From: Brevundimonas sp.
Lineage (GTDB): Bacteria; Pseudomonadota; Alphaproteobacteria; Caulobacterales; Caulobacteraceae
Assembly: GCF_019636155.1 (NCBI RefSeq)
Contig: NZ_JAHBYB010000006.1
Coordinates: 62,001-126,000, forward strand
Reading direction: 5' to 3'
Length of the DNA: 64,000 nucleotides
Position 1 is the first letter of the stretch; the number at the start of each line of letters is the position of its first letter. A program made the position numbers and the translations under genes. The notes beneath the pieces were generated by a model, which saw only the letters and a program-made list of their open reading frames with translations, did no database searches and was not told the origin of the DNA. Below are positions 6,464-50,488 of this stretch, in pieces.

Positions 6464-6611
6464 CCCTTCTCCCCTTGTGGGAGAAGGTGGCCCGCGCAGC
6501 GGGTCGGATGAGGGGTTTCTCAGGCCTTGCCTCACGACCTGCTGATGGGTTCCGCGCGACCCCTCATCCGTCAGCCTTCGGCTGCCACCTTCTCCCACAA
6601 GGGGAGAAGGG
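6464..6611. repeat. 148-bp MITE-like element with 28-bp perfect terminal inverted repeats
   Basis: The two ends (6464-6491 and 6584-6611) are exact reverse complements over 28 bp, and each end is itself a hairpin (CCCTTCTCCCC...GGGAGAAGG). Inside each end comes a sub-terminal block (CGGATGAGGGG / CCCCTCATCCG). The same architecture recurs at 7445-7595, 35192-35349, 50341-50488 and, in diverged form, 32400-32528. This copy fills most of the 213-base gap between the small secreted protein and glyS; its right end lies seven bases beyond the glyS stop. Confidence 0.85.
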
Positions 6612-6617
6612 TCAGGT

Positions 6618-8840
6618 TCAGCCCCCGATCATCCCGAAATCCGCCACCCGGCCCATCACCGACCGCACCTGGCCCAGCAGCTTCAGGCGATTGTCACGCT
6701 CGGCCGGAACGTCGGAGTTGACCATGACGGCGGTGAAGAAGGCGTCCACCGGCGCGCGCAGGCGGGCCAGGGCAGTCATGGCGGCGGCGAAATCCTCGGC
6801 GTCCAGGGCCGCGTCCACGGCGGTCGCGGCGGCGGCGGCGGCGAAGGCCAGGGCGGTCTCTTCCGCCGGCTGGTTCGGCAGGCCGGTCTGGACCATGCCG
6901 GTGGGCAGTTCGCCCTTCTTCTGTTCGGCCCGCAGGATGTTGGAAGCCCGCTTGTAGCCCGCCAGCAGTTCGGCCCCGTCGTCGGTGGCCAGGAAGCTGT
7001 TCAGTGCCTCGACACGTCCGACCAAGAGCGGGAGCACGCTCTTTTCTTGGGCAAATGCAGCTTCGACGACCTCCGCGGCCATTCCTCGATCGCGCAAGGC
7101 GACTCGCGTCCTCTCCTGCATGAAAACAGCAATATCGACGTAGGCGCTATCTAGACGAGCAGCCTCAAGAGCGGATTTGGCGAAGCCCCGGCGCGCGAGA
7201 CCGATCAGCACCGGAAGCTCAACCTTGAGATCGTTTTCGAGCAGAATACGGATCACCCCCAACGCCGCGCGGCGCAGGGCGAACGGGTCCTTCGATCCCG
7301 TGGGCTTCTCGTCGATGGCGAAGAAGCCGACCAGGGCGTCCAGCTTGTCGGCCAGGGCCACCGCCACCGTCAGGGGCGCGGTGGGGACCGTGTCGGTCGG
7401 GCCCTGCGGGCGATAATGGTCGCGCACGGCGTCGGCCAACCGATCCCTTCTCCCCTCGGGGGAGAAGGTGGGCGGCGGAGCCGTCCGGATGAGGGGGCTT
7501 TCGGAGACGGTCGGGGCGGCGGGCAATGAGGGCGATGACACATCCCCCTCATCCGTCTCGCGCTGCGAGACACCTTCTCCCCCAAGGGGAGAAGGAAGGG
7601 CGCGGGCGTAATAGCCACCCATGACGCCCTGCAATTCCGGAAACTCGCCGACCATTCCGCTGGCCAGGTCGGCCTTGGCGTAACGGGCCGCCAGCGCCGC
7701 TTCCTCAGGGTCGGCGCCCACCAGGGGGGCGATCTCGCGGGCCAGGGCGGCGATGCGCTCCACCCGCTCGGCCATGGTCCCCAGCTTGGCGTGATAGGTG
7801 ACGCCTTCCAGCTTCTTCAGCCAGGCGTCGAAGCCGACCTTGCGGTCCTCGTCCCAGAAGAAGCGGGCGTCGTTCAGGCGCGCCGACAGGACGCGGCTGT
7901 TGCCCGCCGCCAGGGCCGCGCCGCCGTCCGTCGCCTCGACATTGGCGACCACCACGAAATGCGGGGCCAGTTTTCTGGAAACGTTCGGGTCGTGTTGCGA
8001 CGGATCGCGCACCGCGAAATATTTCTGGTGCGTCTTCATCGACAGCTGGACCACCTCGGGCGGCAGGTCCAGGAACTGCGGGTCCATGTCGCCCAGGATC
8101 GGCGTCGGCCATTCGGCCAGGCCCGACACCTCGTCCAGCAGGCCGTCGTCATCGACCAGGGCCAGCCCCTTGTCGGAACAGACCTTCTGCGCCGCTTCGA
8201 GGATGCGCAGCCGCCGGTCGGCCGGGTCCAGCAGGACGAAATGCTGTTCCAGCGCCTTCCGATAATCGGCGAAATCCTTGACCGCGAACGGACGGCCCGA
8301 ACCCAGGAAGCGATGCCCCTCGGTCACGTCACCGCTGTCGATGCCTTCGATGGCGAAGGGCACGACGGCGCCGTCGAACAGGCACAGGATACGCTTGATC
8401 GGCCGCACCCAGCGCAGGGTTCCAGAGCCCCAGCGCATCGACTTGGGCCAGGGGAAGCCGCGCACGATCTCTTCGACCATGGCGGGGATCATCTCGGCCG
8501 TATCGCGGCCCTTTTGGCTGATGACGGCGAACAGCACGCCGTCGCGTTCGACCAGTTGATCGCGCGTCAGGCCGGTCTTGCGCAGGAAGCCGTCCAGCGC
8601 CTGTTCCGGCGCCGAGGTTTTCGGCCCCTTGATCTCTTCCTCGCGGTCAGGCGTGGCGGCGGGCAGGCCCTCGACCACCAGCGTCAGGCGCCGCGGCCCG
8701 GCGAAGGTGGTCAGCGCCTCCCACGACAGGCCCGCGGCCTTCAGCCGGTCGGACGCCATCCGCTCCAGATCACGCGCGGCCCCGGCCTGCATGCGGGCGG
8801 GAATTTCTTCGGACAGGATTTCGAGGAGAAGCTGGGGCAT
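6618..8840 (-). CDS. glyS: Glycyl-tRNA synthetase beta subunit
   Basis: The beta subunit of the tetrameric bacterial glycyl-tRNA synthetase; with GlyQ it charges tRNA-Gly in the cytoplasm. I start it at [17 protein letters not shown] (740 residues, E. coli about 689) because this ATG overlaps the stop of the preceding DUF559 gene (TGATG). Conserved blocks include GLAEWPTPILGDMD, MKTHQKYFAV and GRVEALNSFLATDDGAELL. The odd feature is an insertion at about residues 416-466, between GGYYAR and ADAVRDHYRPQGPTD, encoded entirely by a dispersed repeat element that stays in frame. Excluding it, the length matches the family. The insertion falls in an exposed linker near the HD domain, so the enzyme is presumably active, which is inference. 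Confidence 0.95.
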   Translation of the reverse strand: MPQLLLEILSEEIPARMQAGAARDLERMASDRLKAAGLSWEALTTFAGPRRLTLVVEGLPAATPDREEEIKGPKTSAPEQALDGFLRKTGLTRDQLVERDGVLFAVISQKGRDTAEMIPAMVEEIVRGFPWPKSMRWGSGTLRWVRPIKRILCLFDGAVVPFAIEGIDSGDVTEGHRFLGSGRPFAVKDFADYRKALEQHFVLLDPADRRLRILEAAQKVCSDKGLALVDDDGLLDEVSGLAEWPTPILGDMDPQFLDLPPEVVQLSMKTHQKYFAVRDPSQHDPNVSRKLAPHFVVVANVEATDGGAALAAGNSRVLSARLNDARFFWDEDRKVGFDAWLKKLEGVTYHAKLGTMAERVERIAALAREIAPLVGADPEEAALAARYAKADLASGMVGEFPELQGVMGGYYARALPSPLGGEGVSQRETDEGDVSSPSLPAAPTVSESPLIRTAPPPTFSPEGRRDRLADAVRDHYRPQGPTDTVPTAPLTVAVALADKLDALVGFFAIDEKPTGSKDPFALRRAALGVIRILLENDLKVELPVLIGLARRGFAKSALEAARLDSAYVDIAVFMQERTRVALRDRGMAAEVVEAAFAQEKSVLPLLVGRVEALNSFLATDDGAELLAGYKRASNILRAEQKKGELPTGMVQTGLPNQPAEETALAFAAAAAATAVDAALDAEDFAAAMTALARLRAPVDAFFTAVMVNSDVPAERDNRLKLLGQVRSVMGRVADFGMIGG
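7445..7595. repeat. 151-bp repeat element inserted in frame within glyS
   Basis: The element has near-perfect terminal inverted repeats (CCTTCTCCCCTCGGGGGAG at one end, its reverse complement with one mismatch at the other) and the same internal CGGATGAGGGGG blocks as the intergenic copies. It is translated as Pro/Ser/Gly-rich sequence beginning near ALPSPLGGEGVSQRETDEGD. Its length plus target-site change keep the glyS frame open. Confidence 0.9.
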
Positions 8841-9343
8841 CAGAGTTCGTCGTCCCGCACCCATTGATCGCGGGCGCGCCATAGAGCCCTTCCCCGTTGA
8901 TGGGGGAAGGGTTGGGATGGGGGTGAAAGCATGTCCGCCTGGATCGCGGTCAGCACGGCCTCGCGGTCCTCGATCACCTGCCGGACGGTGAAGCGTCGGA
9001 CACGAAAGCCCTGACTTTCCAGCCAGGCCGTGCGGGCGGCGTCTTGGGTTTGCGCCTCTGGCGTCTCGTGGCGCGGCCCATCGACCTCGATCACCAAATG
9101 CCTGTCATGATGAACGAAATCGACGATGAAACGGCCGATAGGCGCCTGGCGACGGATGTTGGTCTTGAGGGTTCGAGGGGCGTCCCAGAGCACTTTTTCG
9201 GGGAAGGTCTGGTCGCGGCGCAGGCGGCGCGCCCGTCCGATGGCGCCGTTCAGATGGCGCGGCCGAACGGCGAGGCCTTCACCCCCAACCCCGGCCCTTC
9301 CCCCATCAAGGGGGAAGGGAGCGCGCGCGGTCTCGTCGCTCAC
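8840..9343 (-). CDS. DUF559 (Vsr-like) endonuclease-domain protein between glyQ and glyS
   Basis: A 167-residue protein whose middle (about residues 31-138) is a DUF559 domain: [19 protein letters not shown], then [20 protein letters not shown] and the final [14 protein letters not shown]. Asp75, Glu86 and Asp88 sit where the Vsr/PD-(D/E)xK fold places its metal ligands, so a DNA nicking or endonuclease activity is expected but not shown. The start is a GTG that overlaps the glyQ stop (GTGA), and the stop overlaps the glyS ATG (TGATG), so the three genes should be coupled. The first 25 and last 28 residues are translations of inverted repeat arms, which suggests the gene came in as part of a repeat-bounded unit. 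No cellular role is known to me. Confidence 0.8.
8887..9319. mobile_element. 433-bp repeat-bounded unit carrying the DUF559 core
   Basis: The left arm (8887-8930, CCCTTCCCCGTTGATGGGGG...) and the right arm (9276-9319) are about 44-bp imperfect inverted repeats, each ending in a CCCTTCCCC..GGGGAAGGG hairpin as in the short dispersed elements. They enclose about 350 bp that encode only the DUF559 domain. The unit sits exactly between the glyQ stop and the glyS start. That it is mobile is an inference from this architecture. Confidence 0.5.
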
Positions 9344-10233
9344 GCCCGCGCCCTTTCCTGTTCGACCCATTCGACAGCGCAGGCCTTACAGAGATCGCGG
9401 ATGCGGCCGATGTAGGCCTGGCGTTCGGCCACGGCGATGGCGCCGCGGGCGTCCATCAGGTTGAACAGGTGGCTGGCCTTCAGCACCTGGTCATAGGCGG
9501 GCAGGACCAGGGCCTGGCCCTGTGGTCCCTTCATGGCCAGGAAGCGCGACACCTCGGCCACCATGTCCTCGAACCGGCGCTTCAGGCCATCGACGTCATA
9601 GCCGTGGAAATTGGCCTCGGACTGCTGGCGCTCGTTCTCCAGGAAGACCTCGCCATAGGTCAGGCCGTCGTTGTTGAAGCGCAGGTCGTAGACGTTATCG
9701 ACGCCCTGGACATACATGGCCAGACGCTCCAACCCATAGGTCAGCTCGCCCGACACCACATCCACCTCGATGCCGCCGACGCCCTGGAAATAGGTGAACT
9801 GGGTCACCTCCATCCCGTCGCACCAGACCTCCCAGCCCAGGCCCCAGGCGCCGACGGTGGGGTTCTCCCAGTCGTCCTCGACGAAGCGAATGTCGTGCAG
9901 TTTCGGGTCGATGCCGATGGCCGCCAGGGAGCCGAGATACAGATCCTGCAGATCGTCCGGGTTCGGCTTCAGGATGACCTGGAATTGGTAGTAGTGCTGG
10001 AGCCGGTTTGGGTTTTCGCCATAGCGGCCGTCGCCGGGGCGGCGGCTGGGCTGGACATAGGCGACCTTCCATGGGCGCGGCCCCAGGGCGCGCAGCACGG
10101 TCGCCGGATGCAGGGTGCCGGCCCCGACCTCGATGTCATAGGGCTGCAGAAGGGCGCAGCCCTGTTCGCCCCAATAGCGTTGCAGGGTCAGGATCAGGTC
10201 CTGGAAGGAAAGGGGTTCGGTCGGTCGGGACAA
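9340..10233 (-). CDS. glyQ: Glycyl-tRNA synthetase alpha subunit
   Basis: The catalytic alpha subunit of class II glycyl-tRNA synthetase. I place the start at a TTG preceded by GGAAA (giving [18 protein letters not shown]), which yields 297 residues against 303 in E. coli; an upstream ATG at 10365 would add 44 residues that run into a repeat and match nothing in the family. Conserved blocks are [50 protein letters not shown] and [20 protein letters not shown]. It is the first gene of a glyQ-DUF559-glyS operon. Confidence 0.95.
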
Positions 10234-10276
10234 GGCGGTTTCCGGCGTTCGCAGGCGCGAAAAAAGGTCGGCGGAC

Positions 10277-10416
10277 CTAGAGCCTGATCCGCTGAGGTGG
10301 AATCGCTTCGCGATTCCGCCGATGCGGTGAATCAGGCTCCAGATATCAGCGAGAGCATGATTCACGCTTCAGCCGGAACCGCGCAGCGGTTTCGTCTAAA
10401 AACGATCATGCTCTAG
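10277..10416. repeat. Two tandem palindromic units (GAGCCTGAT.. and GAGCATGAT.. type)
   Basis: The first unit runs from GAGCCTGATCCGC to GAATCAGGCTC with an inner GGAATCGCTTCGCGATTCC hairpin. The second runs from GAGCATGATTCACG to CGATCATGCTC with an inner GGAACCGCGCAGCGGTTTC hairpin. Such double palindromes starting AGAGCATGAT are common intergenic repeats in alphaproteobacteria. They fill the 229-base gap between the start of glyQ and the end of the next gene upstream. Confidence 0.75.
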
Positions 10417-32080: not shown

Positions 32081-32170
32081 CCTCAAGCAGCGAGGCTCTG
32101 CGAGCCGAGCGTTAGGGGCAAGAAAACCCCTCAAGCAGCGAGCCGCCGCGCGGCGAGCGTTAGGGGCAAG
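32081..32170. repeat. Tandem pair of CTCAAGCAGCGAG repeats, copies B and C
   Basis: Two units of about 43 bases, CTCAAGCAGCGAG - palindrome - GAGCGTTAGGGGCAAG, follow each other directly; the palindromic middles differ (GGCTCTGCGAGCC versus CCGCCGCGCGGCG) while their pairing is preserved. A third copy lies at 826-863. They lie just downstream of the 6S RNA 3' end on the minus strand and before the cyclo-ligase gene, where the hairpins could act in 3'-end formation or processing. Confidence 0.7.
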
Positions 32171-32180
32171 CAAGAAAACT

Positions 32181-32353
32181 TGGCGGCGCCGCGAGAACCG
32201 TGGAGGACTGTTCAATCCTCTCGACCTGGATAACCAGGTGGGCGCCGTGTGCCCAGGCCCTCGAGCCCAAACAGGGACAGCTCCCTTCGAGTGAATTAAG
32301 GTCGCGAGGATAAGTCGCCTCCGACGAGAGCCGCAGCAGGACCCGCCGCCGAT
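32181..32353 (-). ncRNA. ssrS: 6S RNA
   Basis: The position between zapA and the cyclo-ligase gene is the classic one for ssrS. On the minus strand a TATCTT -10 box lies seven bases before a predicted 5' end. The ends pair as a closing stem (GGCGGCG with CGCCGCC). The interior has the alternating short-helix long-hairpin pattern with ACUCGAAGGGAGCUGUCCC, a CACCUGGUUAUCCAGGUCG hairpin and GAACAGUCCUCC on the 3' side. About 170 nt, close to known alphaproteobacterial 6S RNAs. It binds sigma-70 RNA polymerase as an open-promoter mimic. Exact ends are estimates. Confidence 0.75.
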
Positions 32354-32399: not shown

Positions 32400-32528
32400 C
32401 TCCTCCCCATGACAATGGGGAGGCGGTTCGGCGGCCCAGCCGACGAGACGGAGGAGTTCTTTTCGTCGTGTCGTGAAGAACCCCTCCACCGCCTGCGGCG
32501 GTCCCCCTCCTCATGGAATGGGGAGGAG
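32400..32528. repeat. Diverged copy of the hairpin-ended repeat element
   Basis: The ends are hairpins (CTCCTCCCCATGACAATGGG GAGG and CCCCTCCTCATGGAATGGGG) that are imperfect inverted repeats of each other. Internal blocks are CGGCGGCCCAGCCGACGAGA and CCACCGCCTGCGGCGG. It occupies the space between the 3' end of zapA and the 6S RNA promoter. Confidence 0.65.
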
Positions 32529-35191: not shown

Positions 35192-35349
35192 CCCTCTCCC
35201 GAGGGGAGAGGGAGGGGCCCGCTCGCGTTAGCGAGTGGGAGGGTGAGGGCGTCCGGCGTTTGACGTTTCGCACCGTAACCCCTCACCCTTTCGCGCAAGA
35301 ACGACGGCTACGCCGCCGTGCGCTCAAGCCCTCTCCCGCCGGGAGAGGG
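35192..35349. repeat. 158-bp hairpin-ended repeat element (CCCTCTCCC..GGGAGAGGG type)
   Basis: The ends are CCCTCTCCCGAGGGGAGAGG and CCCTCTCCCGCCGGGAGAGG, each a hairpin; together they form inverted repeats bracketing GAGGGTGAGGG / CCCTCACCC blocks. It fills the whole gap between tkt and purT, beginning two bases after the tkt stop and supplying the AG-rich leader of purT. Confidence 0.8.
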
Positions 35350-50340: not shown

Positions 50341-50488
50341 CCTTCTCCCCTCGGGGGAGAAGGTGGCAGGCGAAGCCTGACGGATGAGGGGGCTGGGTCC
50401 GCGCGAAGGTCGTCTGATGATCAGCCTGGATCAGGCCTCCCCCTCATCCGAGCGGCTCCGCCGCCCACCTTCTCCCGCAAGGGGAGAA
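50341..50488. repeat. 148-bp hairpin-ended repeat element
   Basis: CCTTCTCCCCTCGGGGGAGA at the left and its near reverse complement (ACCTTCTCCCGCAAGGGGAG) at the right, with inner CGGATGAGGGGG and CCCCCTCATCCG blocks, as in the copies at 6464 and inside glyS. It lies just after upp, at the outer edge of the integrase island. Confidence 0.85.

Follow-up and report, generated by a model that had tools for sequence, protein, structure and literature searches.

A DUF559 nuclease gene between inverted triplex-motif arms: a probable homing-like element with miniature derivatives in Brevundimonas

The glyQ–glyS locus and its nuclease gene

The window analysed here (64,000 nucleotides of contig NZ_JAHBYB010000006.1 from Brevundimonas sp., assembly GCF_019636155.1) carries between glyQ and glyS a small open reading frame (ORF) for a nuclease of the DUF559 type (PD-(D/E)XK, Vsr fold; 8840..9343, minus strand), bracketed by inverted, hairpin-bearing arms. 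The source genome is 2.79 Mb in size, and its GlyQ is 88–92% identical to that of named Brevundimonas records. The Pfam DUF559 profile matched the ORF with an E value of 1.9e-27 (on the longer reading frame 8840–9370), and between the arms the ORF has matches of the DUF559 type only. Its GTG start shares GTGA with the glyQ stop, and its stop shares TGATG with the glyS start. The two arms, 8887–8923 and 9283–9319, are inverted, 37 nt long and 86% complementary, and lie within the ends of the ORF, where they are translated as the protein termini. A sequence-only reading of the window had claimed a DUF559 core bracketed by inverted arms, set exactly between glyQ and glyS, with translated arms forming the first and last parts of the protein; arm complementarity together with the score controls given below, the codon overlaps on both sides and the translated ORF bear this out.

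Each arm consists of a hairpin followed, on the inner side, by a G-rich tail. Arm comparison and folding as single-stranded DNA place the outer hairpins at 8887..8911 (low-coordinate, glyS-side arm; z = –3.8) and 9295..9319 (high-coordinate, glyQ-side arm; z = –2.9), with 0 of 200 and 2 of 200 shuffles, respectively, folding as well. The predicted third-strand tail of the glyS-side arm is GGGATGGGGG (8914..8923, plus strand), the mirrored purine strand of the hairpin with one A changed to T, and that of the glyQ-side arm is GGGTTGGGGG (9282..9291, minus strand), with two A to T changes. Both arms belong to the CCCTTCCCC type and are devoid of the GANTC site, and no Rfam family matched them at gathering thresholds.

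The window protein possesses all nine residues that are invariant among 63 aligned DUF559 sequences; D84 and E95 belong to the invariant residues. An AlphaFold model of the DUF559 protein has a mean pLDDT (predicted local distance difference test score) of 80, with most of the core above 90 and low values in the arm-coded tails. A structure search with this model returned 3HRL, which is a DUF559 relative by sequence, the catalytic domain of I-Bth0305I (3R3P; E = 4.2e-5, TM-score 0.79–0.80 by target) and then Vsr, whose weaker match (E = 0.005) ranked among Toxoplasma mitoribosome chains. The predicted fold is thus that of an established homing endonuclease. In 2005, YcjD was grouped near Vsr as a putative nuclease (PMC1189080), and Caulobacter cells that lack a cytosine methyltransferase reportedly need the DUF559 protein VsrA for an SOS response (PMC12907096); none of "palindrom", "inverted repeat" and "transpos" occurs in the accessible text of the latter paper.

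Most DUF559 genes tested are bracketed by arms that co-diverge with the protein

The order-level sample comprised 61 genomes (37 Brevundimonas and 24 others of its order), 50 of which contain DUF559. Flanks were scored by the best inverted repeat between 350-bp flanks, with cut-offs of ≥20 and ≥30 and with other positions in the same loci as controls. From the matches listed, 141 genes, the weakest being left out, entered this test; 139 were read and 135 had enough flank. A score of ≥20 was reached by 96 of these 135 genes vs. 21 of 1047 control positions, and ≥30 by 86 of 135 vs. 2 of 1047. Outside the order, in a phylum-wide draw of 150 Pseudomonadota genomes from which 47 DUF559 loci were read, best matches first, 33 of 47 were bracketed vs. 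1 of 91 controls (24/34 in Alphaproteobacteria, 9/13 in other classes). In a plasmid collection, 8 of 12 loci reached a score of 20, four of them from Deinococcus (12 of 19 non-E. coli records; no control run); those below it were two from Synechocystis and one each from Methylobacterium and A. brasilense. The possibility that DUF559 genes mostly lack arms, raised with the sequence-only reading, therefore does not apply within the order or outside it. Chance or generally repeat-rich surroundings are ruled out by the position controls and by the armless small genes seen by eye at the same junctions. The arms still look intact around a DUF559 pseudogene at L264 1947–2459, in which two in-frame stops were read by eye, and a Synechocystis plasmid DUF559 gene adjoins the pglX gene of a BREX system (L387, 1297–3204).

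The similarity of arms rose with the identity of the DUF559 proteins across 107 bracketed elements (r = 0.556, vs. a maximum of 0.07 in 1000 permutations). When arms were permuted within genomes only, the maximum was 0.27, and therefore the arms follow the protein and not the host. Restricting the comparison to one element per site (47 sites) gave r = 0.415 vs. a permuted maximum of 0.146. Arm sequence thus tracks the DUF559 protein clade rather than the host genome.

The glyQ–glyS site is occupied in a patchy manner. A motif search caught 43 Brevundimonas junctions, seven of them from named records that may duplicate others, and missed at least two further occupied junctions (G005 and G025). 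DUF559 was present at 12 of the 43 (10 of 36 without the named records), while 23 of 43 (19 of 36) were empty, the two genes overlapping mostly as TGATG, and these 23 hold neither an arm nor a bare short element. The remainder were one remnant, two junctions with an unrelated 168-bp palindrome and five with other small ORFs without arms. Ten of the 12 occupied junctions were typed as having the window's arm type, and the junctions of G010 and G067 have an additional element or one that is out of place. Over ten genomes, DUF559 identity at this site was unrelated to GlyQ identity (Spearman 0.12, P = 0.44). The genome nearest to the source by GlyQ among the ten, G096 (95.6%), yet has a DUF559 protein only 45% identical, while in G017 GlyQ is 89% and DUF559 73% identical to those of the source genome. 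In a second GlyQ alignment G096 stands at 94.0%, just under G065 (94.6%), which has no DUF559 at glyQ–glyS. Vertical fixation of glyQ–DUF559–glyS without any empty site, the other outcome that would have told against the sequence-only reading, is thus not what these junctions show, since 23 of 43 are empty and DUF559 is out of step with GlyQ. Patchy, non-vertical occupancy of one site is a trait of homing genes. Placement within an intron or intein, another such trait, was not found, as the window gene is set between two genes whose stop and start codons it overlaps. Free-standing homing endonuclease genes, outside introns and inteins, also exist.

Other sites were compared in the same manner. 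At pepA–holC, an element is present in the source genome where G096 has 19 bp; likewise G079 has an element where G085, G071 and G091 have 30 bp at 94–97% flank identity, and in G079 about 28 bp of target is replaced by about 511. At gap–pgk, DUF559 was found in three of the genomes read, and others hold only two-arm elements of other families. The glyQ–glyS, rpsI–argC and gap–pgk junctions hold unrelated small genes in some genomes. A different palindromic repeat of about 150 bp (CATCCC..GGGACCCAG type) occurs at glyQ–glyS in L072 and L078 and at gap–pgk in L323. Judging from these sequence comparisons, DUF559 and its arms appear to behave as a unit that arrives at, leaves and returns to sites, and that has short derivatives.

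Arm families, the triplex motif and short two-arm elements

In arm families that differ in sequence, the tail mirrors the purine strand of the hairpin instead of complementing it, mostly with a single A changed to T. Purine strand/tail pairs that follow this rule are GGGAGAAGG/GGATGAGGG, GGGGGAAGG/GGATGGGGG, GGGAGAGGG/GGGTGAGGG, GGGGAGGG/GGGTGGGG, GGGGAAGGG/GGGATGGGG and GGGGAGG/GGAGGGG. A hairpin was found in 171 of 214 arms, and 59.6% of these 171 had a mirror match of ≥0.88, compared with 5.7% when another family's mirror was used and 9.1% and 5.1% in shuffles; the window arms match at 8 of 9 and 8 of 10 positions. The inner hairpin of type A arms varies with compensation, four of its pairs being 97% paired vs. 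40–75% in shuffles (31 segments of the commonest length), and one outer pair is paired in 58% only. That at least six arm sequences adhere to the mirror rule is evidence, of an evolutionary kind, for selection on a triplex and not on the hairpin alone.

The arms correspond to class II of the intrastrand triplex motifs (TM or PIT) described in 2015 by Holder et al. (PMC4666352), and type C arms match the E. coli triplex motif in sequence (CCCTCTCCC-loop-GGGAGAGGG-loop-GGGTGAGGG). In the accessible text of that paper, the motif is an orphan repeat of E. coli and more than 260 genomes with no known mover, showed no association with transposons, phages or plasmids, and is linked to genome instability. 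Physical triplex formation is reported there for the E. coli motif, not for the arms of the window genome, and the same text mentions neither DUF559 nor endonuclease nor ycjD. By its coordinates, copy 9 in MG1655 (1351239–1351204) lies between fabI and ycjD, whose product is named a DUF559 protein in RefSeq, and an E. coli record has a second, degenerate copy directly after ycjD. E. coli K-12 carries 23 triplex motifs. Of 5426 complete E. coli genomes, 3365 match the ycjD stretch (E. coli loci L384 and L388–L391). No clean empty site was found at ycjD in E. coli; in the three ycjD-less genomes read, efflux genes replace ycjD beside sapF.

Co-occurrence was examined in the same 150 Pseudomonadota genomes, with strong DUF559 defined as E < 1e-10 and the motif as exact type C. 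The motif was present in 21 of 31 genomes with strong DUF559 vs. 6 of 119 others (Fisher P = 3.6e-13), a difference seen in Alphaproteobacteria (13/22 vs. 0/16), and in other classes (8/9 vs. 6/103). Counted by genus, over 87 genera, the motif was present in 15/21 with DUF559 vs. 4/66 without. These counts are the reverse of repeats absent with DUF559 and abundant without it, a further outcome considered at the outset. Y1_Tnp was found in 16 of 27 genomes with the motif vs. 71 of 123 without it (P = 1.0), and a profile search of the source genome gave 0 matches.

Five dispersed non-coding elements of the same hairpin design had been reported in the window. All exist as two-arm elements, but one lies in frame within a gene, and although the design is common to them and the DUF559 element, their arms belong to sequence families other than CCCTTCCCC. 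Repeat comparison identified a non-coding element with type A arms downstream of glyS (6465..6610) and, with translation, a type A element in frame within glyS (7446..7595). Arm reading identified elements with CTCCTCCCC (type D-like) arms at 32400..32528 and CCCTCTCCC (type C) arms at 35192..35349, and both approaches one with type A arms and a decayed right hairpin at 50341..50488. A whole-genome scan of the source for one exact arm family, type A, gave 56 arms, and a reversed control 0. When each arm was joined to the next inward-facing arm, 22 close facing pairs resulted: 20 with cores of 23–51 bp and two with cores of 329 and 402 bp, both of which are DUF559 genes. Type A arms therefore flank both short elements and two DUF559 genes in the same genome. 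Core lengths were also bimodal among loci examined across genomes, which were partly chosen for DUF559. The source genome has six DUF559 matches, four with inverted arms on both sides and two with an adjoining repeat element. Many short copies with terminal inverted repeats, as in a miniature inverted-repeat transposable element (MITE), are thus present, and the short elements share with REPINs two inverted palindromes around a short core. In the 37 Brevundimonas genomes, the number of type A arms increased with that of DUF559 genes (Spearman 0.50, P = 0.002, without correction for kinship); genomes with a type A DUF559 also had more such arms (median 11.5 vs. 5, P = 0.025).

The glyS loop that holds the in-frame element comprises 24–25 residues in 19 Brevundimonas loci and is enlarged in nine (window 7446–7595, L139, L146, L061, L062, L063 and L220–L222); on inspection, some of the enlargements are elements in frame, their arms being of types A, G and E-like. 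Comparison of glyS in G000 with that in G016, by eye, indicates that about 18 bp of target was replaced. In G036, the glyS short element has 41 nt beyond the tail in common with the DUF559 element 5′ of glyS (0 of 1000 shuffles); this is the one of two tested short elements that has internal sequence in common with a nearby DUF559 element. Exact insertion boundaries could not be read from near-identical short elements, several of which lie within larger composite repeats. In the source genome these composites (L404, L405, L406, L407, L411, L415 and L418) consist of a D-type remnant, a type A element and CCTATGCTCGCGACGCGG-like tandem units, and their parts keep the same order at several places.

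Other repeats and genes in the window include a 45-bp repeat, CCTCAAGCAGCGAG, partly tandem, at 826–870 and 32081–32173, and a 6S RNA gene on the minus strand at 32182–32342. The first 30–40 residues of the called glyQ ORF (10246–10365) look like a dispersed repeat, and a GlyQ query in the source genome gave seven matches, including three listed short ones to its first residues.

A homing-like nuclease element and its rivals

We consider it probable, at roughly 60%, that the DUF559 gene, together with its inverted arms, makes up a small nuclease element that is homing-like and has given rise to MITEs. The gene and its hairpin-plus-third-strand (triplex) arms would move as one small element; the Vsr-fold nuclease would most likely recognise the arms or the target site and nick or cut the DNA, and repair of the break would then copy the element into the site, with a small piece of the target replaced and not duplicated. 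Solo hairpins, and short two-arm elements whose cores measure about 45 bp, would be internally deleted derivatives, which the same enzyme may spread in trans and which may outlive it. Homing-like break repair agrees best with the predicted fold, with the preference for certain sites and with the small size of the target stretches replaced. The earlier suggestion of an autonomous element with MITE-like derivatives is thus supported by bracketing, co-divergence, empty sites and co-occurrence, but no transposition event was observed.

Several results weigh against this reading. No movement or cleavage was observed, no target-site duplication was seen in the pepA–holC or glyS comparisons, and 39 of the 135 DUF559 genes, among the matches listed, have no clear arm pair. 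Among bracketed DUF559 genes, the window's arm type turned up in the glyQ/glyS region alone (13 elements), so that any long-range mobility of that type is hypothetical. Fast divergence of DUF559 could also weaken its correlation with GlyQ. In the 37 Brevundimonas genomes, type D arm number bears no relation to DUF559 number (Spearman 0.09), and type D arms are not clearly commoner where a type D DUF559 is present (P = 0.16). Arms also abound where no enzyme was found: G003 and G001 have 57 and 35 type A arms and no type A DUF559, and G261 contains 123 triplex motifs and gave no match to DUF559. Co-occurrence is weaker when all 46 genomes with DUF559 at E ≤ 0.001 are counted (22/46 vs. 5/104, P = 1.8e-9). 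The short element of G090 has no core in common with the nearby DUF559 element (96 and 166 of 1000 shuffles as good). In E. coli, the motifs beside ycjD all lie on the same side of the gene, and the PF04480 profile gave no match in the E. coli control genome, which speaks against the ycjD link.

DUF559 genes might instead be homing nucleases that colonise pre-existing triplex repeats spread by something else, the repeat being a landing pad and DUF559 a passenger. Between arms, DUF559 does sit where other elements have their short core, its close structural relative is a proven homing endonuclease, and six of 119 genomes have the motif without a strong DUF559 match. We nonetheless find this unlikely, as the arms follow the DUF559 clade and not the genome, also across sites, the motif is rare without DUF559, and the empty glyQ–glyS junctions are free of arms and bare short elements. 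Somewhat less probable again is a resident host gene, for mismatch repair or defence as with Caulobacter VsrA, beside abundant intergenic or transcript-level arms that collect at permissive spots. The VsrA phenotype with a solitary cytosine methyltransferase (PMC12907096, in its accessible text) and the unrelated small genes housed at glyQ–glyS, rpsI–argC and gap–pgk fit such a gene; against it, those small genes are without arms (by eye), control positions near DUF559 seldom have arm pairs (2%), and arms and protein co-diverge.

An inverted hairpin pair, a short core and many copies are also the architecture of REPINs moved by a Y1 tyrosine transposase (RAYT). The source genome has no Y1_Tnp match, so that REPIN/RAYT identity was rejected for it; Y1 presence is unrelated to the motif, only DUF559 lies between the window arms, and we regard this explanation as very improbable. 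An ordinary insertion sequence was likewise rejected, there being no transposase in the ORF between the arms. REPIN/RAYT systems (PMC3116915, PMC2817692) resemble the DUF559 elements in having inverted hairpin pairs as non-autonomous elements with a single-gene partner, but the candidate partner here is a Vsr-fold nuclease and not a Y1 transposase.

The proposed homing-like element shares with the triplex motif, as far as the accessible text of PMC4666352 describes it, the three-segment design, inverted pairs and the type C sequence; it differs in that the arms of the window genome bracket a gene, and in that further arm families follow the mirror rule with a different sequence and one additional hairpin. 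With I-Bth0305I (PDB 3R3P) it has in common the catalytic fold and patchy, non-vertical occupancy of one site, but it has no intron or intein, carries inverted triplex arms and miniature derivatives, and would cut DNA only by analogy. Vsr, Caulobacter VsrA (PMC12907096) and YcjD (PMC1189080) are likewise PD-(D/E)XK and Vsr-like, VsrA carrying DUF559, but are described in the accessible texts as repair-type or putative nucleases. Caulobacter CIR repeats are also dispersed structured intergenic repeats of alphaproteobacteria, but are given in the accessible text of PMC2229807 as about 110 bp long with GANTC sites. In searches of one open-access library, preprints excluded, titles and abstract openings contained no link of DUF559 or ycjD to these repeats, which is not proof of absence.

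At somewhat less than even odds, we tentatively extend the proposal to a new class of mobile element, ranging from Pseudomonadota into at least Deinococcota. Its sole protein would be a Vsr-fold (DUF559) nuclease and its triplex-motif ends would be read as structure; it would have created the orphan triplex/PIT repeats and would move them in trans, inserting by break repair without transposase or target duplication. The DUF559 enzyme is the best candidate yet for the mover of triplex repeats. These repeats, known so far without a mover, thereby gain a testable candidate, including ycjD in E. coli K-12. If the proposal is true, the DUF559 family would gain a biology, a nuclease without a transposase could found a MITE-like population, and the phenotype of the Vsr-like VsrA may be recast as that of a possibly domesticated or selfish nuclease.

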